NCBI RefSeq assembly: GCF_001544515.1
Contig: NZ_FCOL02000027.1
Coordinates: 1-64,000, forward strand
DNA length: 64,000 nt
Direction of reading: 5' to 3'
Source: Caballeronia terrestris
GTDB taxonomy: Bacteria > Pseudomonadota > Gammaproteobacteria > Burkholderiales > Burkholderiaceae
Under the pieces are notes generated by a model. The model made no database searches. It saw nothing but the letters and a program-made list of their open reading frames with translations, and was not told where the DNA came from. A program made the position numbers and the translations under genes. Shown in pieces: positions 281-21,772 of this stretch; position 1 is the stretch's first letter, and each line of letters opens with the position of its first letter.

Positions 281-356
281 CTACGGGCGACGCCCGATTG
301 CGCACCGCTTTTCGGCTTGATACGTTGACGAGTTGCCTCCTGGCGTTTCCCACTCG

Positions 357-1340
357 ATGACCGAAGACTTCTGCTTCCTGCTGCTGCCCGAGTTCTCGTC
401 GATCGGCTTCATGTCGGCGATCGAACCGTTGCGCGTGGCGAACCGCTTCAGCGGCGCGCTGTATCAATGGCACATTCTGAGCGCCGACGGCGGCCCCGTC
501 GCCGCGAGCAACGGCATTTCGCTCAACGCGGAAGGCTCCTTCGATACCGTGAAGGACGCGAGCGCCGTGTTCGTCGTCGCGGGCTTCGAGCCGCTTAAGT
601 GCTATACGCGCGAGATCGGCGACTGGCTGCGGCGGCTGGATCGCGCGGGCGTGACGCTCGGCGGCATCGATACGGGGAGCTTCCTGCTCGCCGAAGCGGG
701 CTTGCTCGAACACAAGCGCGCGACCGTGCACTGGGAAGCGGCGTCGGCATTCAAGGAGCGCTATCCGTCGCTGGAGGTGAGCCAGGAGTTGTTCGAAATC
801 GACGAGCGGCGCATCACGTGCGCGGGCGGCACCGCATCGATCGATCTGATGCTCGATGTGATAGCACGTCGCCATGGCGCGGAACTCGCGGCGCAGGTGT
901 CGGAGCAGTTCGTGCTCGGGCGCATCCGGCAGCGCTCGGATCATCAGCGCATGGAGATCGCCGCGCGCTACGGCATCCACAATCGCAAGCTGATTCAGGT
1001 GATCGGCGTGATGGAGCAGCACATGGAAGAGCCGCTCTCGCCCGATGAACTCGCCGAATCGATCAGCGTGACGCGGCGCCAGCTCGAACGCCTCTTCTGC
1101 TCGGCGCTGAAGGATACGCCGACGCATTTCTATCTCGGCCTGCGCTTGACGCGTGCGCGTGAATTGCTGCAGCAGACCGACATGTCGATCATGGCGGTGT
1201 GCGTCGCGTGCGGATTTGAGTCGCCGTCGCATTTTTCGCGCACGTATCGGGTGCGCTTCGGCACGAGTCCGCGGCACGACCGCAGCGCATTGCGCACGAC
1301 GGCTTCCGCGCAAGCATGGGAAGCCGCCGTTAGCGAGTAG
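357..1340 (+). CDS. GlxA-family (DJ-1/PfpI + AraC HTH) transcriptional regulator
   Basis: A 327-residue protein with an N-terminal DJ-1/PfpI-like domain (about 1-190) and a C-terminal AraC-type double helix-turn-helix (about 215-315, with 'LTRARELLQQTDMSI' and 'CGFESPSHFSRTYR'). This is the architecture of GbdR, CdhR and SouR, which sense quaternary amines in Pseudomonas. The nucleophile-elbow position reads GGIDTGSF, with Asp where the second homologue in this window (20765) has Cys, so a peptidase activity is unlikely. The ATG at 357 was chosen because the protein then begins MTEDFCFLLLP as is usual for the family; a TTG at 333 would add eight residues. It ends 3 bp before the convergent porin. 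A role in quaternary-amine control is inferred from neighbours. Confidence 0.85.
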   Translation: MTEDFCFLLLPEFSSIGFMSAIEPLRVANRFSGALYQWHILSADGGPVAASNGISLNAEGSFDTVKDASAVFVVAGFEPLKCYTREIGDWLRRLDRAGVTLGGIDTGSFLLAEAGLLEHKRATVHWEAASAFKERYPSLEVSQELFEIDERRITCAGGTASIDLMLDVIARRHGAELAAQVSEQFVLGRIRQRSDHQRMEIAARYGIHNRKLIQVIGVMEQHMEEPLSPDELAESISVTRRQLERLFCSALKDTPTHFYLGLRLTRARELLQQTDMSIMAVCVACGFESPSHFSRTYRVRFGTSPRHDRSALRTTASAQAWEAAVSE

Positions 1341-1343
1341 CGT

Positions 1344-2492
1344 TTAAAACGAATGCCGCATGCCGATCCGCACGTCGCTCTGCGTGTTCGACGACGACGG
1401 CGTGAAGCTGTAGCCGATCACCGCGTTCACGCCATCCGATGCGCGCAGGTAGTCGCCGGAGATATAGACGTCGGTGCGCTTCGACAGCAGGTAATGCAGC
1501 CCGAGCGATCCCTGATTCCAGTGATTGCCTTCGAAACGCGTGTGCTGATAGCCGCCATAGAGCGCGAGCGCCGGCGTGAAGCTGTACGACGCGCCGCCCT
1601 CATACACCTGCATGTGCGAGGTCTCGCCCAAGCCCTTGATCGTCGTGTAGGTGAAGTTGCCCGAAAGCATCAAGTCGCCGAACGAGTACGCGGCGCCGAT
1701 CGCGAACGCGCCCTGCTTGTCGACCGGAAACGCGTTGGTGCTGTACAGGTCCGTCACGGCGCCCGTCGCCGGATCGACGGAAACGGTCGGCTGGCCGAGG
1801 AACGTGCGCGTGCCGATCATCGCGTAGGGGTCGAACGCGTAGATGCCAAACGGGTTGTTCAACTGCGTATAGGCCGCGCCGATGTTGAACGTGTTGCGTG
1901 CATAGTGCGCGCCCACGCTCCACGCGCTGTTCTGATGGAAGTTGCCTGCCTGGTTGCCGAACGAATACATGCCGCCGAACGTGAAGCCGGCAAAATCGTT
2001 CGACAGGAACTTGACCGAGTTCGGCAGGCGGTCACCATTCATGCGGTCGAAATCGCCCTGGTGGATCGCGTAGCCGCTGCCCCACGCCGAGATGTTGTAG
2101 AGATAGACGAACTCCTCGGTCATGTCGAGCTGGTTGCCGAGCGAGAACGTGCCCCACGAATTCTTCAGGCCCACATACGCCTGCCGCCCGAATTCTGCGC
2201 CGCCGAACGTGTAGCGCCCGGTGCCGAGGCGAAAGCCCGATTCGAGCACGAAGACCGCTTGCAGGCCACCGCCGAGATCCTCTACGCCCTTGAAGCCGAT
2301 ACGGTTGCCGTATGAAATGCCGTCGTCGAATCTCCAGGCATGCGCGCCACCGGTGTTGTTCACATAGGTGATGCCCGCATCGATGATGCCGTATAGCGTG
2401 ACGCTGCTCTGCGCATGGACGATCGCGGGCGCGCTGGCGGCGCCAGCCGCGAGCGTGAGTCCTGCGAGCCGGGCGGCATTTCTTTTCTTCAT
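1344..2492 (-). CDS. Gram-negative general porin (OmpC/Omp38-like)
   Basis: A 382-residue outer-membrane beta-barrel porin of the Burkholderiales type. It has a signal peptide (MKKRNAARLAGLTLAAG, cleaved near AHA-QS), then the hallmark start 'QSSVTLYGIIDAGITYV' and many 'GFKGVEDLGGG'-like strands. It ends in the typical C-terminal barrel signature 'IGMRHSF' with terminal Phe. The start is at 2492, preceded by AGGGGAAAG; a longer frame upstream lacks porin features. It is convergent with the regulator at 357 (3 bp between stops). Upstream, at 2674-2701, is a direct-repeat operator shared with the betaine binding protein at 8001, suggesting the pore serves uptake of choline, betaine or related solutes (inference). 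Substrate cannot be read from sequence. Confidence 0.9.
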   Translation of the reverse strand: MKKRNAARLAGLTLAAGAASAPAIVHAQSSVTLYGIIDAGITYVNNTGGAHAWRFDDGISYGNRIGFKGVEDLGGGLQAVFVLESGFRLGTGRYTFGGAEFGRQAYVGLKNSWGTFSLGNQLDMTEEFVYLYNISAWGSGYAIHQGDFDRMNGDRLPNSVKFLSNDFAGFTFGGMYSFGNQAGNFHQNSAWSVGAHYARNTFNIGAAYTQLNNPFGIYAFDPYAMIGTRTFLGQPTVSVDPATGAVTDLYSTNAFPVDKQGAFAIGAAYSFGDLMLSGNFTYTTIKGLGETSHMQVYEGGASYSFTPALALYGGYQHTRFEGNHWNQGSLGLHYLLSKRTDVYISGDYLRASDGVNAVIGYSFTPSSSNTQSDVRIGMRHSF

Positions 2493-2673
2493 CTGGCTTT
2501 CCCCTGCTGGACCTGCGTGTTTGAATGGACGAAGCGAAAGCCGCCGCGCGACGTTGGCGGCCTTCGTCTGACGTGGGGCTTGGGGTTGCAGTGCAGCTTG
2601 AGCGACGTATTTACATTTACGCATGCGTCGATGACGTAAAAGTAAGGGTTCATATTGATGGCCGCTCGACCCA

Positions 2674-2701
2674 TTGCGACGCGAATCTGTCCAGTTGCGA
2701 C
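2674..2701 (-). promoter_or_regulatory. Direct-repeat operator TTGCGAC-N14-TTGCGAC upstream of porin
   Basis: On the + strand two TTGCGAC half-sites begin at 2674 and 2695 (21-bp period, two helical turns). The second is preceded by G and followed by NNCGCC. The same arrangement, with the same TGTC in the spacer, occurs at 8932-8959. Tandem half-sites two turns apart are typical of AraC-type binding. It lies about 180 bp upstream of the porin start and just beyond the end of choX. Confidence 0.55.
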
Positions 2702-2708
2702 TACGCCG

Positions 2709-3656
2709 CTATTTCACGCCAAGCGCCGTCTGCACCGCCTGCAGGCCGTTCGCGCCGCTCGCGGTATTCACGCCGTCGAGCCAGGTCTTGAGCAATTCCG
2801 GATGGCGCTTCAGTGCATCGGTCGCGGCCAGGTCGAGGTTCGCTTTCTTATCGAGCACTTCCGTTATGACGCCGTTCTCCAGATCCACGTTGAACGTGAG
2901 TTGCTTAAAGAGCCGCGCGACGTTCGGGCATTGCGCCTCATAACCCGAACGCGCGACCGTGTTCACAGTGGCGCCGCCGTAGTTCGGGCCGAAGTACCGG
3001 TCGCCGCCATCGAGATAGGTCAGCTTGAACTTCGTGTTCATCAAGTGCGGTTCCCACGCGAGAAATACGATCCACCTCTTGTCGCGCACGGCTCGATCGA
3101 CTTGCGTCAGCATGGCCGTCTCGCTCGACTCGACGAGCTTCCACCCGCCCATGCCGAATGCCTTGTCGTCGACCATCTTCTTGATGTTCTGGTTCGCCAG
3201 CGCGCCCGGCTCGATGCCGTAGATCTTGCTGTCGAACTTGTCGGCGTTCTTCGCGAGGTCAGCGAACGTATGGACGCCCGCCGCTGCCACATAGTCGGGA
3301 ACGGCGAGCGTGAACTTCGCGTTGCTCAAATTCGGATGCACGACTTCAATCGATTTCTCCTCGACGAACGGCTTCACGAGCGGCGCCTGCGCTGGCATCC
3401 AGTTCCCGAGGAACACGTCGATCTGCCCTTTCTTCAAGCCCTGGTAAGTGATCGGCACCGAGAGGTTCGCCACGTTCTGCTTGTAGCCGAGCGCCTTCAG
3501 CACGACGCCGGTCATTGCATTGGTGGCGTCGATGTCGGTCCAGCCTGGGCCCGCCATGCGCACTTGCGTGCAGGCTTGCGGCTCGGCAGCCGACGCGATC
3601 GTCGCCGCGCATAGCAGGACCGCGCCGAATACCGCTTGTTTGAAGGGCTTTTTCAT
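2709..3656 (-). CDS. choX: Choline ABC transporter periplasmic binding protein
   Basis: A 315-residue OpuAC-type substrate-binding protein. It has a signal peptide (residues 1-23, cleavage at ASA-AE) and the quaternary-amine pocket aromatic residues expected for ChoX: Trp39 in GPGWTD, Trp86 in LGNWMP and Trp201 in FLAWEPH, with Tyr122 a possible fourth wall. It delivers choline to an inner-membrane ABC permease. No permease or ATPase gene lies beside it, so the transporter core must be encoded elsewhere. It starts 30 bp after betC on the same strand with a good AAGGAAG ribosome site, so the two are probably co-transcribed. This links choline sulfate hydrolysis to choline capture. Confidence 0.88.
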   Translation of the reverse strand: MKKPFKQAVFGAVLLCAATIASAAEPQACTQVRMAGPGWTDIDATNAMTGVVLKALGYKQNVANLSVPITYQGLKKGQIDVFLGNWMPAQAPLVKPFVEEKSIEVVHPNLSNAKFTLAVPDYVAAAGVHTFADLAKNADKFDSKIYGIEPGALANQNIKKMVDDKAFGMGGWKLVESSETAMLTQVDRAVRDKRWIVFLAWEPHLMNTKFKLTYLDGGDRYFGPNYGGATVNTVARSGYEAQCPNVARLFKQLTFNVDLENGVITEVLDKKANLDLAATDALKRHPELLKTWLDGVNTASGANGLQAVQTALGVK

Positions 3657-3686
3657 GTCGGCTTCCTTGGTGTGGGTAGGTGGGGT

Positions 3687-5228
3687 TCAGGAATGAGCGA
3701 CGGCGGGAAAGCGAGCCATCGCCTCCAGCGCATCGAGATCGATGTGATTGCGCATATAGCGCTGGCTCGCATCGACATGCGGCTGCCAGTCCCACGATTC
3801 GATCACGCCGCGTGTGGTCGCTTCGAAGTGGAAGTGGCGGCGGCGCTGGCTCGTGATGACTTGATCGTGGAGCGCGGCAAGGTCCCAACGTTTTGCTATC
3901 TCTTCACGGAACGCGGCGGTTTCCTTTGCATGGTCCGCGTTCGATGCCAGGTTGTTGCGTTCGAGCGGATCGGCTTGAAGATCGTAGAGCTGATCGGGGT
4001 CGGCGGGCGTGTGGATGAACTTGAAGCGCCCGCGCCGCAGCATCACGATCGGCGCTATCGCACCCTCGCCGAGATATTCGCCAATGGCTTCGTCGTGCGC
4101 ATCGCGTTCGCCGCGCAGATGCGGCAAGAGGCTTTGACCATCGGGCGCATCGGGCCATGCGTCGCACGGCTTGCCTCGGCCGAGTTCGACGAGCGTCGGC
4201 AGCAAGTCCAGATGCGACACCGATTGACTCACGCGATGCGCATCGAATTGCCGCGGCGCATGCACGATGAGCGGCACGCGGCAGCCGCCTTCGAAGAACG
4301 TCATCTTGTACCAGAGGCCACGCTCGCCGAGCATCTCGCCGTGATCCGACGTGACGACGACGATCGTGTCCTTATCGAGCCCCGAGTCCTTCAGCGCTTC
4401 GAGGATCGCGCCGAACTGATCGTCGACGTAGGAGATCGCGCCATGATACGCGCGGCGTGCGTTGCGAATCTGCTGGTCGGTGGGTGGCGTGCGGTCCGTC
4501 TCACAGACGTAGCGCAGGCGCTTCGAATGCGGATCACTGGCTTCGAGCGAATCGCGATGCACGGGCATATCGATGTCTTCGTCGCGATACATATCCCAGT
4601 ACTTCTGCGGGATCGCGTACGGGTCGTGCGGATGCGTGAGCGAAGCGATCATGCAGAACGGCCGCGCGTCGCGGCCGGCGTTGCGTTCGCGCGCGATGTC
4701 GAAAAGTTTTTGACGTGTGGTGAACGTGACTTCATCGTCGAAGTCGAGCTGATTCGTGCGCACGCAGGGACCCGCGTCTATCACCGAGCTCATGTTGTGA
4801 TACCACGTCGGGCGCTTTTCGAAGTGCTCCCAGTCGGGCGTCCAGCCGAAATCGGCGGGATAGATGTCGGTGGTGAGGCGCTCCTCGAAGCCATGCAACT
4901 GATCGGCGCCGCAGAAATGCATCTTGCCCGAGAGCACCGTGCGATACCCCTCCGCGCGCAGGTAATGCGCGAACGTCAGCGTTTGCGACGGAAACTCTGC
5001 AGCGTTGTCGTATGCGCCGATTTTGGAAGGCAGCTTGCCCGACAGAAACGAGAAACGCGACGGCGCGCACAACGGGCTCGCACAATAGGCCGAATCGAAC
5101 ACGACGCCCTCTTTCGCGAGCCGATCGAGATTCGGCGTCTTCGTCAGGCGATGCCCGTAAGCGGCGAGCGCGAACGGTGTCATCTGGTCGGCCATGAGGA
5201 TAAGGATATTTTGTTTCGTGCTGAGCAT
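3687..5228 (-). CDS. betC: Choline-sulfatase
   Basis: A 513-residue arylsulfatase-superfamily enzyme that hydrolyses choline-O-sulfate to choline and sulfate. The metal-binding N-terminus 'NILILMADQM' is followed by the formylglycine motif 'CAPSR' with the modified Cys at residue 54, the same position as in rhizobial BetC. Further on are 'GKMHFCG', 'VVVTSDHGEMLGERG' and the choline-sulfatase C-terminal module ('FHFEATTRGVIESWDWQ'). The start at 5228 (MLSTKQN) gives the family's usual length; the frame extends upstream only as non-homologous sequence. It is divergent from the LysR regulator at 5353 and upstream of choX. The product choline would feed betaine synthesis; betA and betB are not in this window. 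Confidence 0.95.
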   Translation of the reverse strand: MLSTKQNILILMADQMTPFALAAYGHRLTKTPNLDRLAKEGVVFDSAYCASPLCAPSRFSFLSGKLPSKIGAYDNAAEFPSQTLTFAHYLRAEGYRTVLSGKMHFCGADQLHGFEERLTTDIYPADFGWTPDWEHFEKRPTWYHNMSSVIDAGPCVRTNQLDFDDEVTFTTRQKLFDIARERNAGRDARPFCMIASLTHPHDPYAIPQKYWDMYRDEDIDMPVHRDSLEASDPHSKRLRYVCETDRTPPTDQQIRNARRAYHGAISYVDDQFGAILEALKDSGLDKDTIVVVTSDHGEMLGERGLWYKMTFFEGGCRVPLIVHAPRQFDAHRVSQSVSHLDLLPTLVELGRGKPCDAWPDAPDGQSLLPHLRGERDAHDEAIGEYLGEGAIAPIVMLRRGRFKFIHTPADPDQLYDLQADPLERNNLASNADHAKETAAFREEIAKRWDLAALHDQVITSQRRRHFHFEATTRGVIESWDWQPHVDASQRYMRNHIDLDALEAMARFPAVAHS

Positions 5229-5291
5229 GTGAACGTGCCTCGAATAGAATCGAACAAGCGGCCGCGCGCGAGCGTGGCCATGAACGCCACT

Positions 5292-5334
5292 ATTGCCGGT
5301 CATAACCGCGCTGTGAAGACGGCAATTCGTTATG
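5292..5334. promoter_or_regulatory. Nested inverted repeats in the betC / LysR divergent promoter
   Basis: Two interleaved dyads lie in the 124-bp gap: ATTGCCG (5292-5298) with CGGCAAT (5320-5326), 21-bp spacer, and CATAAC (5301-5306) with GTTATG (5329-5334), 22-bp spacer. Their position between a LysR gene and its divergent target fits a LysR recognition/activation site that also represses the regulator's own gene. The LysR start has its own strong AGGGGGAG site immediately downstream. Confidence 0.55.
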
Positions 5335-5352
5335 TGCCCATAAGGGGGAGTT

Positions 5353-6261
5353 ATGCCGAGGCAGGACCGCTTGCCGCCGATGCAGGCGCTATCGATGTTC
5401 GAGTCCGCTGCGCGTCTCGCGAGCTTCACCGCGGCCGCGCGCGAACTCGGCTCGACGCAGCCGGCCGTCAGCCAGCGCGTCGTGCAACTCGAGGAAGCGC
5501 TCGGCGCGCCGCTCTTCGAGCGCGGCCATCGCGGCGTCACGCTGACCGAAGACGGCACGCGTCTCTTCGAAGCCGTGCGGCAGGCACTCGACACGATCCG
5601 CGTAGCCACCGCCGGTATCCGCGCGCGCCACACGCCACGCACGCTCACGCTCTCCACCGATTTCGGCTTCGCCACGTATTGGCTGATGCCGCGGCTCTCG
5701 CAGTTCAAGGCGCTGATGCCCGATGTCGACGTGAAGATCATCACGTCGCAAAACGTGTTCGATACGTCGCACGATCATGCGGATATCGCGATCGCTTTCG
5801 GCGATCTAACCGCGGACTGGGGCGCGCATGATGTCGTGAAGCTGTTTGCCGAGGAAGTCACGCCGGTGTGCAGCCCGTCGTTTCTCGCGGCCAATGCGAA
5901 GCCGCGCGTGCCCGCCGATCTCGCGACGCTCCCTTTACTGCATCTCGAACCGACCTCGCCCGCGCGCTGGCTCTCGTGGAATGGCTGGTTCGCCGCGCAC
6001 GGACTTGATGCGCCGCCCGCGCATCGCGGCATCACGTTCAACAGCTACGCGTTCGTTGCGCATGCGGCGATCATGGGGCAAGGCGTCGCGCTCGGCTGGG
6101 CGCCGCTCGTCGATGAACTGATCGCGACGGGACAACTCGTACCGCTCTTCGACGCGCCCGTCGTGACCGAGCGCGGCTATTTACTTGCCACCCAGCGCGC
6201 CCCGACTCCCACGATCACAGCGTTTCGCCAGTGGCTGCTGGACGAATGCGGCATCGAATGA
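5353..6261 (+). CDS. LysR-type regulator of choline sulfate use
   Basis: A 302-residue LysR-family protein. The N-terminal winged helix-turn-helix (about 10-65: 'MFESAARLASFTAAAREL', 'TQPAVSQRVVQLEEALG') is followed by a periplasmic-binding-like inducer domain of the GcvA type. It is transcribed divergently from betC, an arrangement seen for the choline-sulfate-utilisation regulator of Pseudomonas and Burkholderia, so betC activation by choline sulfate or choline is the likely role (inference from context and family). The ATG at 5353 follows AAGGGGGAG at ideal distance. The nested palindromes at 5292-5334 are its probable binding site. Confidence 0.85.
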   Translation: MPRQDRLPPMQALSMFESAARLASFTAAARELGSTQPAVSQRVVQLEEALGAPLFERGHRGVTLTEDGTRLFEAVRQALDTIRVATAGIRARHTPRTLTLSTDFGFATYWLMPRLSQFKALMPDVDVKIITSQNVFDTSHDHADIAIAFGDLTADWGAHDVVKLFAEEVTPVCSPSFLAANAKPRVPADLATLPLLHLEPTSPARWLSWNGWFAAHGLDAPPAHRGITFNSYAFVAHAAIMGQGVALGWAPLVDELIATGQLVPLFDAPVVTERGYLLATQRAPTPTITAFRQWLLDECGIE

Positions 6262-6385
6262 CGCTTTGACGCTCCCGTTCCAGCGTCACGGCGTTTAGCT
6301 TCTATCCGCGCGTGCCCTGCATTTGCTCTACTGCGAACATGCGCGCCGTATTCGCGGCGCGGTCCTATCCGATAGTGGAGAGCGC

Positions 6386-7258
6386 ATGTCCGCCGATTCC
6401 CGTCCTCATCAACTGGTGCTTACCGTGGCGTGTCCGAGCGCGGCGGGGCAGGTTGCCGCCGTCGTCGGCTTTCTCGACCGGCATCATTGCTACATCGACG
6501 AACTGACCGTCTTCGACGACGATCTTAGCGAGCGCTTCTTCGTGCGCTGCGTGTTTCATGGCGTCGAGCGCGACGAGACGTTGCAGATCGAGGCGCTCAA
6601 GCGCGAGTTCGAATCGATCGCGGTGCGTTTTCACATGACGTGGGCGATGCACGACGTCGGCGCGCGGCCGAAGGTGCTGATCATGGTGTCGAAGCTGGAG
6701 CATTGCCTTGCCGACCTGCTGTTCCGCTGGCGCATGGGCGAGCTGAAGATGGATATCGTCGGGATCGGGTCGAATCATCGCGATCTCGAACCACTTGCTG
6801 TGCAGCACGGTCTACCGTTCCATCACCTTCCGATCACCGCCGATACCAAGCAGCAACAGGAAGCGCGCCTTATTGACTTGTTCGAGAGTTCAGGCGCCGA
6901 GCTGATGATCCTCGCGCGCTACATGCAGATCCTTTCCGGCGAGACGAGCCGCAAGCTCGCGGCGCGCGCGATCAACATCCATCACTCGTTCCTGCCTGGC
7001 TTCAAGGGCGCGAAGCCCTATCACCAGGCGCATGCGCGCGGCGTGAAGCTGATCGGCGCGACGGCTCACTTCGTCACCGACGATCTCGACGAAGGCCCGA
7101 TCATCGAGCAGGAAGTGGAACGCGTCGATCATTCGTACAGCCCGGAGAGGCTGCTCGCGACAGGACGCGACGTGGAATGCATCACGCTCGCGCGGGCAGT
7201 GAAGGCGTTCATCGAGCGGCGGGTTTTTATCAATGGGGATCGTACGGTCGTGCTGTAG
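6386..7258 (+). CDS. purU: Formyltetrahydrofolate deformylase
   Basis: A 290-residue cytosolic enzyme that hydrolyses 10-formyl-tetrahydrofolate to formate and tetrahydrofolate. An N-terminal ACT domain (about 8-90) precedes the formyltransferase fold. Catalytic residues are present: Asn197 and His199 in 'NIHHSFLPGFKGA', and Asp235 in 'DLDEGPIIEQ'. The ATG at 6386 follows GTGGAGAG and matches the family length; an upstream frame adds unrelated residues. In pseudomonads purU accompanies sarcosine oxidase and glycine-betaine genes. Here it lies between choline sulfate and betaine genes, consistent with recycling folate loaded with methyl-derived one-carbon units. A G-rich tract and repeats follow. 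Confidence 0.95.
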   Translation: MSADSRPHQLVLTVACPSAAGQVAAVVGFLDRHHCYIDELTVFDDDLSERFFVRCVFHGVERDETLQIEALKREFESIAVRFHMTWAMHDVGARPKVLIMVSKLEHCLADLLFRWRMGELKMDIVGIGSNHRDLEPLAVQHGLPFHHLPITADTKQQQEARLIDLFESSGAELMILARYMQILSGETSRKLAARAINIHHSFLPGFKGAKPYHQAHARGVKLIGATAHFVTDDLDEGPIIEQEVERVDHSYSPERLLATGRDVECITLARAVKAFIERRVFINGDRTVVL

Positions 7259-7270
7259 GCGCTGGCGCTT

Positions 7271-7291
7271 GGGGTTGGGGTTGGGGTTGGG
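7271..7291 (+). other. G-quadruplex-capable tract after purU
   Basis: Four G runs (7271-7274, 7277-7280, 7283-7286, 7289-7291) are separated by TT, meeting the canonical G3+N1-7 pattern on the coding strand. The tract starts 12 bases after the purU stop and abuts the repeat at 7297. Confidence 0.6.
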
Positions 7292-7296
7292 TTGGT

Positions 7297-7605
7297 GTTT
7301 CAACCGTTTGATGCGCTTGGGCTTCGGTGGAACTTGCTTTCTTAGCGGTCTATTTGCTCTGCCCCTGTCCGGGGCGGGACTCACTTTCTTTGCTGCTGCA
7401 AAGAAAGTAAGCAAAGAAAGCAGCTTCCAACCGCCAAAGCTAACCAACCCTCACTCGCGTAAAAGCGGATTGGCGCTGGAGAGTAAGTGTCGCCCTCATG
7501 GCAGAACCGGGCTTGGCTCGCGGACCCACTGCGGCAACTCGCAGTACAGCGGACAGGTGCAGCAGTCATACATCCGTCCTCGCGCTACGCGCTCAGACGT
7601 GGGGT
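7297..7605. repeat. Dispersed repeat, copy B (inverted)
   Basis: Reverse-complement copy of 1-280 over 7297-7538, including the hairpin at 7383-7408. Its outer part (about 7570-7605) is an imperfect inverted match to about 7655-7692, so copies B and C form one large palindrome around a short centre near 7606-7654. Frames across it are repeat artefacts. There is no gene between purU (7258) and 8001. Confidence 0.85.
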
Positions 7606-7654
7606 GCACGACGCAGGGAATCAAGGCTCGTAGGAGCGCAAGCAAGAGATGGCT

Positions 7655-7970
7655 TTTGTGAACCCGACGTCGGAGCGAAGCGAGGACGGCGCCAAACGGA
7701 GCGCATACCACTCAGAGCAAGTGCGCGTTGACACAGTGGGTCCGCGAGCCAAGCCCGGTTCTACCGTGAGGGCGACACTTACTCTCCAGCGCCAATCCGT
7801 TCTTACGCGAGTGAGGGTTTGTTTGTACTGGCGGTTGGAAGCTGCTTTCTTTGCTTACTTTCTTTGCAGCAGCAAAGAAAGTGAGTCCCGCCCCGGACAG
7901 GGGCAGAGCAAATAGACCACTAAGAAAACAAGTTTCATAGAGGCCCAAGCGCATCAAACGGTTGAACCCC
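7655..7970. repeat. Dispersed repeat, copy C (same orientation as copy A)
   Basis: The core 7694-7970 matches 1-280 in direct orientation with scattered mismatches. The same hairpin is at 7857-7882 and it ends with the same GCATCAAACGGTTGAA tail. Copies A and C therefore bracket the regulator-porin-choX-betC-LysR-purU block as direct repeats. Confidence 0.85.
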
Positions 7971-8000
7971 TAACCCGACCCCCGAGCGCCAGCGACCCCC

Positions 8001-8858
8001 CTACTTCACCCAGCTATCCACCCGATCGCCATGCGCGCCGATCCATGCATCGGCGGCGGCCGTCGGCTTCTCGCCGTTTTGCGTCGCGAGCATCACGCTG
8101 TCGATCTCGCCCGGCTTCCACTGGAACTTCTTCAGGAACGCGACAACCGTCGGCGCCTTCTTCTCCAGCTCCGGATTCACGACGCTATCCACATGCTCGG
8201 CCTCACCAAACACCTTCTTCGGATCTTCGAGGAATTTGAGCTTGTACTTCGCGAACATCCAGTGCGGCTTCCAGCCCGTCACGATGATCGGCTTGCTCGC
8301 CGCTTCCGAACGCGCCAGTTCCGCCGTCATCGCGCTACCCGAGCTCGGCATCAACTGGTAGTCGAGCTTGTAAGCCTTGATCGCTTCGCTCGTCTTCTGC
8401 ATGACGCCCGCGCCCGCATCGATACCGACGATGCGCGAACCGAACTCCGCCTTCTTCGCCTGCAGATCGTCGAGGCTCTTCACATCGACGCTTTCCGGCA
8501 CGATCAGGCCGATCTTCGCATCATTGAAGTTCGGACCCAGGTCGACGACCTTGTCCTTGAAGTTGTTCCAGTACGCGCCGTGCGTGATCGGCAGCCACGC
8601 GGACAGCGTGGCGTCGAGGTCGCCACGCGCCACGCCCTGCCACATCACGCCGGCTGCCACCGGCACGAGCTTCACTTCGTAACCCAGGCGCTTCTCGATG
8701 ATGCGCGCCGCCACGTTCGAGGTCGCGACGCTGTCGTCCCATCCTTCCACGTAGCCGATCTTGATGGTGGGTTTCGTATCGGCCGAAACGCCGACGCTCA
8801 CTGCCGCCAGCGCCGCGCTCATTGTGCTCAAGACGAGCAGTTTCTTGATCAGTCTCAT
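8001..8858 (-). CDS. Glycine betaine/quaternary-amine ABC transporter binding protein
   Basis: A 285-residue periplasmic OpuAC/ProX-type binding protein. The signal peptide is MRLIKKLLVLSTMSAALAAV..., cleaved near VSA-DT. Betaine-cage candidates include Trp in 'YVEGWDDS', 'LSAWLPITH' and 'VTGWKPHWMF'. The start at 8858 follows GGGAGAA; the twelve residues further upstream in frame lack signal-peptide character. It is the last gene of the betaine run (124 bp after gbcB), and that gap holds a direct-repeat operator (8932-8959), so it probably also has its own promoter. It resembles the orphan binding proteins BetX/CaiX/CbcX that share one permease core in Pseudomonas. Exact ligand (betaine or carnitine) is not decidable here. 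Confidence 0.87.
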   Translation of the reverse strand: MRLIKKLLVLSTMSAALAAVSVGVSADTKPTIKIGYVEGWDDSVATSNVAARIIEKRLGYEVKLVPVAAGVMWQGVARGDLDATLSAWLPITHGAYWNNFKDKVVDLGPNFNDAKIGLIVPESVDVKSLDDLQAKKAEFGSRIVGIDAGAGVMQKTSEAIKAYKLDYQLMPSSGSAMTAELARSEAASKPIIVTGWKPHWMFAKYKLKFLEDPKKVFGEAEHVDSVVNPELEKKAPTVVAFLKKFQWKPGEIDSVMLATQNGEKPTAAADAWIGAHGDRVDSWVK

Positions 8859-8931
8859 CGTCGTTCTCCCGTTCCCGTCCGTGCCGTTGAGCACTCAGAA
8901 TCGCCAGCCAGAATTGGCGTGTAACGTTGTT

Positions 8932-8959
8932 TTGCGACGTCCAGTTGTCTTGTTGCGAC
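8932..8959 (-). promoter_or_regulatory. Direct-repeat operator TTGCGAC-N14-TTGCGAC upstream of betaine binding protein
   Basis: TTGCGAC half-sites begin at 8932 and 8953 (21-bp period). Each continues as TTGCGACGTC. The spacer TGTC, the G before the second half-site and the trailing CGCC all match the site at 2674-2701. It lies about 75 bp upstream of the start at 8858, a position suited to activation by an AraC-type regulator such as the GbdR-like protein at 20765 (inference). Confidence 0.6.
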
Positions 8960-20352: not shown

Positions 20353-20764
20353 GAGGGAGGTCCGTGGTCAGGAAAATGGATCGTTTCCGAGGCGCCGGTC
20401 GTGGCCTTGAAGGCCTTTCGTTACCGCGCTTCGATTGCGTCTATTCTTGATCCACGCCCCGCGCGTCAATTTACGAATTCAGACGCGTTCTTGGCCTTTT
20501 CCGACATGGGCGTCTGTTTTCGACAAGTGGCGTGCCGCGATTTGAGGTATCGGCAATGTGTTTGAAACGCGCACTGCACTGCGGCGGAGCGTGCGTGCTT
20601 TTAAAACGTGCGTTCTCTATTTCGTTGCCCCAGAGCCGGGCGCGCTTGACCCGGCGGCTCAGGGTTTAGCCTTATGGCACGCTAGTTGCAATCGTCATCA
20701 AATGCGTAATCCGCTGCTCCCCACGGCGGACTCCAACTATAGATTCCAAGGAATCACGGCCCCC
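20353..20764. promoter_or_regulatory. Divergent control region between glyA operon and GbdR-type regulator
   Basis: A 412-bp gap without a convincing gene. It contains an approximate direct repeat, TTTTCCGACATGGGCG (from 20497) and TTTTCGACAAGTGGCG (from 20517), placed for control of glyA; it is only loosely like the TTGCGAC boxes and the period is 19-20 bp. A perfect dyad, GATTCC-AA-GGAATC (20742-20755), stands 9 bases before the regulator's ATG and overlaps its AAGGA ribosome site. A possible alternative start for the regulator is the ATG at 20702. Confidence 0.45.
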
Positions 20765-21772
20765 ATGTCCCCCGATCGCACGGCGTCGCTGTCGCATTTC
20801 GCTTTCATGCCGCTACCCAACTTCACGATGATCGCGTTCACCAACGCCATCGAAGTGCTGCGCATGGCGAACTATCTGACAGGGCAGCCGCTGTATCGAT
20901 GGTCGATCGTCAGTCCCGAAGGCGGACCGGTCACGGCGAGCAACGGCTTGTCCGTCGATACCGGCCCGGTCGATTGCGTCGGACAGCCGGATATCGTGTT
21001 CGTGGTGGGCGGCATCGACGTGCAGCGGGAGACCACGCCCGCGCACCTCGTGGCGCTGCGCCGCTTCGCGCGGACGGGCAGCGTGCTCGGCAGTCTTTGC
21101 ACCGGAACGTATGCGCTCGCGCGCGCCGGCTTGCTCGCGGGCTACGCGTGCGCGATCCATTGGGAGAACATGTCGGCGCTCAAGGAAGAGTTTCCGGACA
21201 CGCGTTTTCTGAAGGAGTTGTTCGTCGTCGATCGCGACCGGGTGACTTGTACCGGCGGCGTCGCGCCGCTCGACATGATGCTGAACCTGATTGCCGCGCG
21301 CGTCGGCACGGCGCGGGTAACGCAGATCGCGGAGCAGTTCATCGTCGAACACGTTCGCGATACCAGCGCGCAGCAGCGCATGCCGCTCGTCGCACGCTTG
21401 GGATCGGCGAACAAGTCGCTATTCGAAGTGATCTCGCTGATGGAGAACAACATCGAAGAGCCGCTTTCGCGCGAAGAACTCGCGCGGCTCGCGGGGATGT
21501 CGCAGCGGCAGTTGCAGCGGATCTTCCGGGAGCATCTCGGCATGACGCCTACTCATTATTACCTGACATTGCGTTTGCGCCGTGCGCGCGAACTGCTGCT
21601 GCAAACCGATATGTCGATCATGCATATCACGATGGCTTGCGGCTTTCAGTCGGCTTGCCACTTCTCGAAGAGCTATCGCGATGCGTTCGGTACGGCGCCT
21701 ACCCGCGAGCGCAGGAAGCAGGCGCCATCGCTTGCTTCGGTGCCTGCGGGCGGCGGTCTGCGCGTCGCCTGA
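20765..21772 (+). CDS. gbdR: GbdR-type GlxA-family activator of betaine catabolism
   Basis: A 335-residue DJ-1/PfpI-AraC regulator. The N-terminal ligand domain includes 'FVVGGIDVQ' and the elbow 'GSLCTGTYALARAGLL' with Cys. The C-terminal AraC domain includes 'LSREELARLAGMSQRQLQRI', 'LRLRRARELLLQ' and 'CGFQSACHFSKSYR'. Its place, divergent from glyA and the gbc/dgc genes, matches GbdR, which responds to glycine betaine and dimethylglycine in Pseudomonas. The ATG at 20765 gives the usual family length; an in-frame ATG at 20702 would add 21 residues. Candidate targets are the glyA run, the binding protein at 8001 and the porin at 1344. Convergent with hpnB (10 bp apart). Confidence 0.85.
   Translation: MSPDRTASLSHFAFMPLPNFTMIAFTNAIEVLRMANYLTGQPLYRWSIVSPEGGPVTASNGLSVDTGPVDCVGQPDIVFVVGGIDVQRETTPAHLVALRRFARTGSVLGSLCTGTYALARAGLLAGYACAIHWENMSALKEEFPDTRFLKELFVVDRDRVTCTGGVAPLDMMLNLIAARVGTARVTQIAEQFIVEHVRDTSAQQRMPLVARLGSANKSLFEVISLMENNIEEPLSREELARLAGMSQRQLQRIFREHLGMTPTHYYLTLRLRRARELLLQTDMSIMHITMACGFQSACHFSKSYRDAFGTAPTRERRKQAPSLASVPAGGGLRVA

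Follow-up and report, generated by a model that had tools for sequence, protein, structure and literature searches.

Choline and betaine genes are reportedly under the control of several GATase1/AraC regulators (GATRs), as in the GbdR regulon of Pseudomonas aeruginosa and in the case of gbdR1, gbdR2 and souR of Burkholderia thailandensis. For CdhR of P. aeruginosa, the site at caiX is GGTCGC-N15-GGTCGC within a 34-bp footprint and, in the sections cited here, this site is said to resemble the GbdR, SouR and ArgR sites closely, only two identical intergenic sites of this type are given for PAO1 (caiX-cdhR and cbcX-sdaB), and the caiX operon includes an acylcarnitine hydrolase (PMC5806209). The ArgR box of Pseudomonas is TGTCGCN6GNAA repeated with 5 bp in between, corresponding to a period of 21 (PMC10963909). 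Here, we analyzed 64,000 nucleotides of Caballeronia terrestris (contig NZ_FCOL02000027.1, positions 1 to 64,000; the window), in which a direct repeat of this kind lies upstream of a porin gene and again upstream of the gene for an ABC-type betaine-binding protein, referred to as SBP2. The two repeats are a real and conserved pair of putative GATR operators. With moderate confidence, we suggest that the porin operator belongs to the CdhR (carnitine) regulon and that the SBP2 operator is a sister site that is likelier to be read by another GATR.

In a scan of the window, the sequence TTGCGAC-N14-TTGCGAC is found exactly at 2674-2701 and 8932-8959, and these two copies are the only ones in the whole 8.2-Mb genome, for which base composition predicts approximately 0.06 (0.0005 per 64 kb). 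The repeat described in a sequence-only reading of the window is exact in both places, has a period of 21 and is not common at random. Read towards the gene, both copies are GTCGCAA-N14-GTCGCAA, i.e. GTCGC-N16-GTCGC, and both are oriented alike relative to a minus-strand target gene. The spacer TGTC at an equal position and the G before the second half-site, which were also pointed out in that reading, are present in both copies. CGCC does follow both copies after 2 bases, but is not part of the element because the 40 bp past the distal end are not conserved. Each full half-site reads GTCGC-N5-GNC, the first starting at offset 1 and the second at offset 22, which gives an operator of 35 bp, and -10-like elements are found at the same offset, 58-63, from the porin and the SBP2 operators. 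With the GTCGC core occurring twice as direct-repeat half-sites at a period of 21, as in operators of the CdhR/GbdR/SouR/ArgR type, the repeats look like the AraC-type operators they were proposed to be and match the architecture of CdhR and ArgR sites.

The conservation of the two sites was analyzed in 58 genomes of the genus, starting from the proteins and not from the motif, with sites scored as matches out of 14 half-site positions. At E 1e-150, 46 of these genomes have a porin match, and at E 1e-60, 49 have a match to SBP2; 30 loci were fetched for each gene, out of 47 listed places for the porin and 50 for SBP2. All 30 porin loci have an upstream site scoring 12-14, and all 30 SBP2 loci have a site at a distance of 97-114 bp from the start; its score is 10 in 15 loci, 11 in eight, 12 in five and 14 in two. 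Both sites are thus conserved upstream of orthologous genes. As controls, choX reaches at most 10/14 in 30 loci, i.e. the relatives lack such a site for choX itself, and betC likewise reaches at most 10/14 except in two rows cut at the locus edge (L235 and L243; L198 for SBP2 and L244 for the porin are artefacts of the same origin). Information per column is 1.76 bits (porin) and 1.64 bits (SBP2) in the site, 1.48 and 1.56 bits in the next 32 columns towards the gene and 0.30 and 0.27 bits over the 40 bp past the distal end; the alignment of the rows on the best-scoring site favours the half-site columns. The operator also remains close to the porin in many loci that have no choX found next to it.

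The 35-bp pattern precedes the porin in 46/46 porin-bearing genomes of the genus (41 exact, five with one mismatch) and, in 39 of the 40 candidates fetched, lies 76-151 bp before the start of caiX; in the fortieth, it precedes a caiX remnant, which is followed by cdhC. Altogether, the 58 genomes contain 85 exact matches spread over 49 genomes compared to approximately 0.3 expected for an assumed mean genome size of 7 Mb. Among these, 43 are porin-type (41 confirmed by position, plus G047, in which the porin is in pieces, and a presumed one in G041) and 41 are caiX-type (39 fetched, the one in this genome and the one at the caiX remnant); thus, 84 of the 85 are of one or the other type and 81 are confirmed by position. 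With up to one mismatch there are 122 matches versus 31 for a reversed control, and because the 37 one-mismatch matches are near the control level, they count only with positional support; six of the one-mismatch sites (G001, G015, G026, G041, G050 and G053) are candidates of the caiX type. In C. terrestris, a refined 28-bp pattern has three exact matches, at the porin, SBP2 and caiX (0.17 expected), the last at 57010 of contig C36, 87 bp from caiX; this test is only partly blind because the pattern was set after the caiX sites of relatives had been seen. With up to one mismatch, the refined pattern gives 28 matches, among them the weaker site upstream of glyA, versus eight for its reversed control. 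A looser form, GTCG-N6-GACA-N7-GTCG, was dropped as too noisy (223 matches with up to one mismatch versus 99 for the reversed control).

The caiX site of C. terrestris is exactly GGTCGC-N15-GGTCGC, the string of the P. aeruginosa CdhR site, and the halves of the porin operator keep the G and T known to matter in that site. Similarity between porin and caiX promoters extends beyond the operator and includes GTCG at 32, TATG at 48-51 and TAnnnT at 58-63. Over offsets 29-66, porin and caiX promoters have an identity of 0.57 in the 27 loci with both, compared to 0.25 (sd 0.07) for random stretches. Operator and promoter features are thus held in common with a caiX target and, because of the 35-bp form together with this downstream agreement, the porin looks like a member of the carnitine (CdhR) regulon.

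The proteins encoded at 333-1340 and 20765-21772 contain DJ-1/PfpI and AraC helix-turn-helix domains and are therefore GATRs. The two flanking AraC-type regulators of the sequence-only reading belong to the right subfamily, but instead of GlxA proteins the first is an orthologue of CdhR and the second is GbdR-like. The former groups in a 24-row tree at 100/99 with Pseudomonas GATRs that have a caiX-like gene as neighbour, and it stands outside the GbdR group; the Pseudomonas rows are called CdhR from gene order and not from a curated model. In Pseudomonas kilonensis (L246), its counterpart adjoins choX-like and BKACE-type genes, and a GbdR of 654 bits, above the cut-off, lies approximately 6 kb away. 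In C. arationis (L180), the counterpart is divergent from choX-like (caiX-like), BKACE-type and L-carnitine dehydrogenase genes, the last scoring 644 bits against a cut-off of 414. We refer to the regulator as CdhR because of the grouping in the tree and these carnitine-gene neighbours; in relatives it is divergent from caiX-cdhCA. In C. terrestris, caiX is on contig C36. The contig of the window begins 332 bp before cdhR and C36 ends approximately 165 bp past the caiX operator; since both contigs end there, the caiX-cdhR region is probably split by an assembly gap.

The second regulator scores 376 bits and thus falls short of the cut-off of 480 of the NCBIfam GbdR equivalog NF052371; the label GbdR-like refers to this score and to its place heading betaine genes. 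It pairs (99/97) with a paralogue beside choWV-like genes on contig C30. Other readers of the operators are possible because the genome holds six GATRs of at least 280 bits, and the recognition-helix residues of the regulators gave no clear separation. At E 1e-120, CdhR is absent from 13 of the 58 genomes, and a GbdR-like match is present in 50, in two of them at only 71-73% identity. In G004 (L323, 9586-10526), a frameshift or an assembly error divides the CdhR gene into two overlapping frames, with porin and operator intact.

The SBP2 operator departs from the porin operator in several respects. Within the 58 genomes, GTCGCAA is found in both SBP2 halves only in C. terrestris and G027, and outside the genus in Paraburkholderia sp. 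C35 (L218); the other 28 fetched loci of the genus have GTCG-N6-[GA]ACA-N7-GTCG with 10-12 of 14 half-site matches. The SBP2 promoter is without most of the downstream elements common to caiX and the porin, and its identity to the porin promoter over offsets 29-66 is 0.37 (21 loci), a value reached by 2.5% of random stretches. Moreover, the SBP2 operator is kept in three genomes (G010, G037 and G043; L077, L087 and L086) in which the best remaining CdhR hits are at most 48% identical, a search for the porin at E 1e-150 finds none and no betC, choX or porin is found in the 18.5-19 kb around SBP2; because these CdhR-less genomes keep it, the SBP2 operator can be maintained without CdhR. Our data suggest that the SBP2 operator is a cousin site, probably read by a sister GATR rather than by CdhR. 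Strictness of the fifth base was considered as proof of this split and rejected: it holds in Caballeronia, in which porin and caiX sites are strict and SBP2 sites are free, and fails in Paraburkholderia.

In a wider set of 80 named loci around CdhR relatives, Caballeronia included, strict GTCGC is present in both halves at 57/57 scored caiX loci. At the porin, the distal half is strict in 31 of 33 named loci, and at SBP2 the distal half is strict in 21/21 and the proximal half in 9/21; these counts include the porin row of L180, which is misregistered (its operator lies approximately 859 bp upstream), and L202, which is 21 bases out of register. Porin operators of Burkholderia and Trinickia have the form GTCGCA...GTCGC (L235, L239 and L243), and in Pseudomonas all five caiX-cdhR regions looked at have GTCGC-N16-GTCGC towards caiX.

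The assignment of the porin to CdhR, and of SBP2 to another GATR, draws on site conservation, orientation, geometry, the promoter match with caiX and regulator orthology, all of which are observed. Several observations weigh against it. With AGTCGC and CGTCGC, the porin operator matches only five of the six positions of GGTCGC in each half, and the proximal half is strict GTCGC in only 24 of the 33 named porin loci. In several loci of other genera (L196, L198, L232, L235 and L243), the porin is a neighbour of choX but kilobases away from cdhR, and the substrate of the porin may for this reason be choline or its sulfate. Several Paraburkholderia have strict GTCGC halves at SBP2 and a weaker porin site, and since porin and SBP2 promoters also agree above the null mean, the split between them is one of degree. 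In half of the fetched loci the score of the SBP2 site is level with the ceiling of choX and betC; therefore, the case for this site is made by its fixed position and column conservation. A single block deletion may account for the joint loss of porin and CdhR in G010, G037 and G043, and a fork in the tree leaves undecided whether the pair formed by the GbdR-like protein and its C30 paralogue is nearer to GbdR or to CdhR.

Alternatively, betaine would act through a single regulator of the GbdR type, the GbdR-like protein of the window, which would activate the porin, SBP2 and the glyA-gbc genes, with CdhR being a mere neighbour. In line with this idea, the 50 genomes with the GbdR-like gene include all 49 with SBP2, a GATR-like site is present in the conserved block upstream of glyA, and the draft genomes G004, with the split CdhR frame, and G030, without a CdhR hit above 48% identity, keep porin and operator without a recognisable intact CdhR. 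In addition, GbdR of P. aeruginosa is described, in the sections cited, as binding a site that overlaps that of CdhR (PMC5806209). We nevertheless consider this alternative unlikely: the porin promoter is nearer to that of caiX than to that of SBP2, nearly all exact 35-bp matches in the genus are porin- or caiX-type, and G041 and G047, both of them small genomes, have partial CdhR matches and a porin-type site without a GbdR-like gene. That CdhR alone controls both genes is more doubtful still, even if in C. terrestris each operator consists of an exact GTCGCAA repeat whose spacer contains GACA, with -10-like elements at an equal offset, given that the SBP2 operator outlives CdhR in three genomes, has a free fifth base in most fetched relatives and leads into a different downstream promoter. 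Hence, the proposal of the sequence-only reading that one regulator serves both genes is not borne out, with the porin pairing with caiX instead.

Chance repeats or conserved non-regulatory DNA would fit with the finding that at up to three mismatches the repeat is not in excess in the window (17 found, 16.3 expected from shuffles) and that the near-matches at 5745, 11633 and 20233 are all within predicted genes. Conservation speaks strongly against this explanation, as do the rarity of the exact repeat and the site upstream of the porin in all 46 genomes that have a porin match, and with 1.6-1.8 bits in the site columns compared to 0.3 past the distal end we regard it as highly improbable.

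For the assignment of the porin to CdhR and of SBP2 to a sister GATR, we suggest the following mechanism, in which we infer the identity of the binding protein, the ligands and activation. In the presence of carnitine, a CdhR dimer would occupy the two head-to-tail half-sites GTCGC-N5-GNC 21 bp apart, and the proximal (downstream) half-site would abut the -35 region; this geometry, including the lack of a recognisable -35 in the porin promoter, would fit with an activator. Bound CdhR would turn on the porin along with caiX-cdhCA, and entry through the outer membrane, capture in the periplasm and catabolism would thereby increase in concert. The SBP2 operator, at the same distance from its -10, would be read by another GATR, for which the GbdR-like protein is the foremost candidate, and CdhR may cross-bind there. 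In more general terms, in Caballeronia, and more weakly in Paraburkholderia, Trinickia and Burkholderia, CdhR may control a dedicated porin via a caiX-like promoter, adjacent to a near-identical operator for betaine capture that belongs to a sister GATR and has the same half-sites in this lineage; for this broader proposal our confidence is barely better than even.

Table 1. Operators, promoter elements and genes in the analyzed window; operator and promoter entries are predictions
Feature	Position	Strand	Remarks
CdhR-type operator of porin (putative)	2667..2701	-	35 bp, with GTCGC-N5-GNC at offsets 1 and 22; 175-209 bp before porin start
Putative porin -10, TACTTT	2639..2644	-	Offset 58-63 from operator start; conserved TAnTnT; tentative assignment
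Gram-negative porin (PF13609 Porin_4)	1344..2492	-	Domain match
GATase1/AraC regulator, CdhR orthologue	333..1340	+	Convergent with porin
GATR-type operator (putative) of betaine-binding protein	8932..8959	-	73 bp from gene start
Putative -10 of binding-protein promoter, GATTCT	8897..8902	-	Offset 58-63; tentative assignment
-35-like GTTACA of binding-protein promoter	8920-8925	-	Offset 35-40; tentative assignment
SBP2, ABC-type glycine betaine/choline substrate-binding protein (PF04069 OpuAC)	8001..8858	-	Domain match
Weaker GATR-like site	20478..20505	-	One mismatch to refined pattern; conserved block upstream of glyA-to-gbcB genes
GATase1/AraC regulator, GbdR-like	20765..21772	+	Divergent from glyA cluster
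choX, choline-binding protein	2709..3656	-	Upstream of porin operator
betC, choline sulfatase open reading frame	3687-5744	-	Between choX and SBP2

The minus-strand genes in the window are those for the porin, choX, betC, SBP2, gbcB, gbcA, etf genes, an OYE-type enzyme and glyA (Table 1), where gene names are from NCBIfam matches, some of them under the cut-off, or from gene order. The porin promoter has no recognisable -35, with offset 35-40 reading GAGCGG. By eye, no sigma-54 spacing was seen in the SBP2 promoter, and the promoter geometry at the weaker glyA site differs. Downstream of the SBP2 operator, a conserved short direct repeat (ATTCTGG, GATTCTG) is found at 8896-8916 on the minus strand, and 20353-20776 forms a long conserved block between glyA and the GbdR-like gene with TGTCG-type half-sites approximately 19-21 bp apart. 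In G032 (L107), the operator lies beside choX and the start of the porin is 859 bp off, approximately 600 bp beyond the usual distance, perhaps as a result of an insertion between operator and gene. The porins of G015 and G052 contain stops. The remaining exact 35-bp match in the genus, in G033, precedes a lipase/esterase-like gene, and CdhR-type operators with one mismatch are similarly placed in G020 and G008 (L420 2017-2051, L421 1763-1797 and L422 1858-1892 for the three). The gene resembles hormone-sensitive lipase at approximately 205 bits, under the cut-off of 350 bits; given that P. aeruginosa has an acylcarnitine hydrolase in its caiX operon, it is possible that it encodes an acylcarnitine esterase.

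Because period-21 GTCGC repeats have been published for CdhR and ArgR sites, the operator type is not new, and the sequence-only reading's idea of an undescribed regulon persists in the link of the porin to this class of regulator. What is new here is the porin as a putative member of the CdhR regulon; an open-access literature search, judged mostly from listings, gave no paper joining CdhR to a porin. Porins of the Porin_4 family are usually regarded as general pores, and the carnitine-type promoter in all 46 porin-bearing genomes of the genus suggests a pore tuned to quaternary amines. We predict that the porin is induced by carnitine through CdhR; if true, uptake of quaternary amines would be regulated at the outer membrane. 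In addition, sister regulators may have an operator architecture in common and yet be distinguished by promoter context.

The locus can be compared with four described systems, each as presented in the sections of the sources cited. It is like CdhR-caiX of P. aeruginosa in the GTCGC repeat, the period of 21, the GATase1/AraC regulator and the caiX target, with a footprint of 34 bp there and a conserved operator of 35 bp here, and unlike it in that this operator type also precedes a porin (PMC5806209). With the ARG box of ArgR it shares the TGTCGC-type repeat at a period of 21, but ArgR is an arginine regulator and the conserved G here comes one base before the G of the box (PMC10963909). ArgR-oprD of P. 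aeruginosa provides an example of a CdhR-related regulator acting on an outer-membrane channel, as proposed here, although with oprD and arginine and not a Porin_4 protein and quaternary amines (PMC11599538, a review). Finally, in SphR-sphA of P. aeruginosa an AraC-family protein with direct-repeat sites raises a predicted porin for its own substrate, as CdhR may do here; unlike here, the substrate is sphingosine and the half-site is another one, and the same paper, the only one from the search in which CdhR, a porin and carnitine all occur, employs CdhR as a control protein (PMC3900636).

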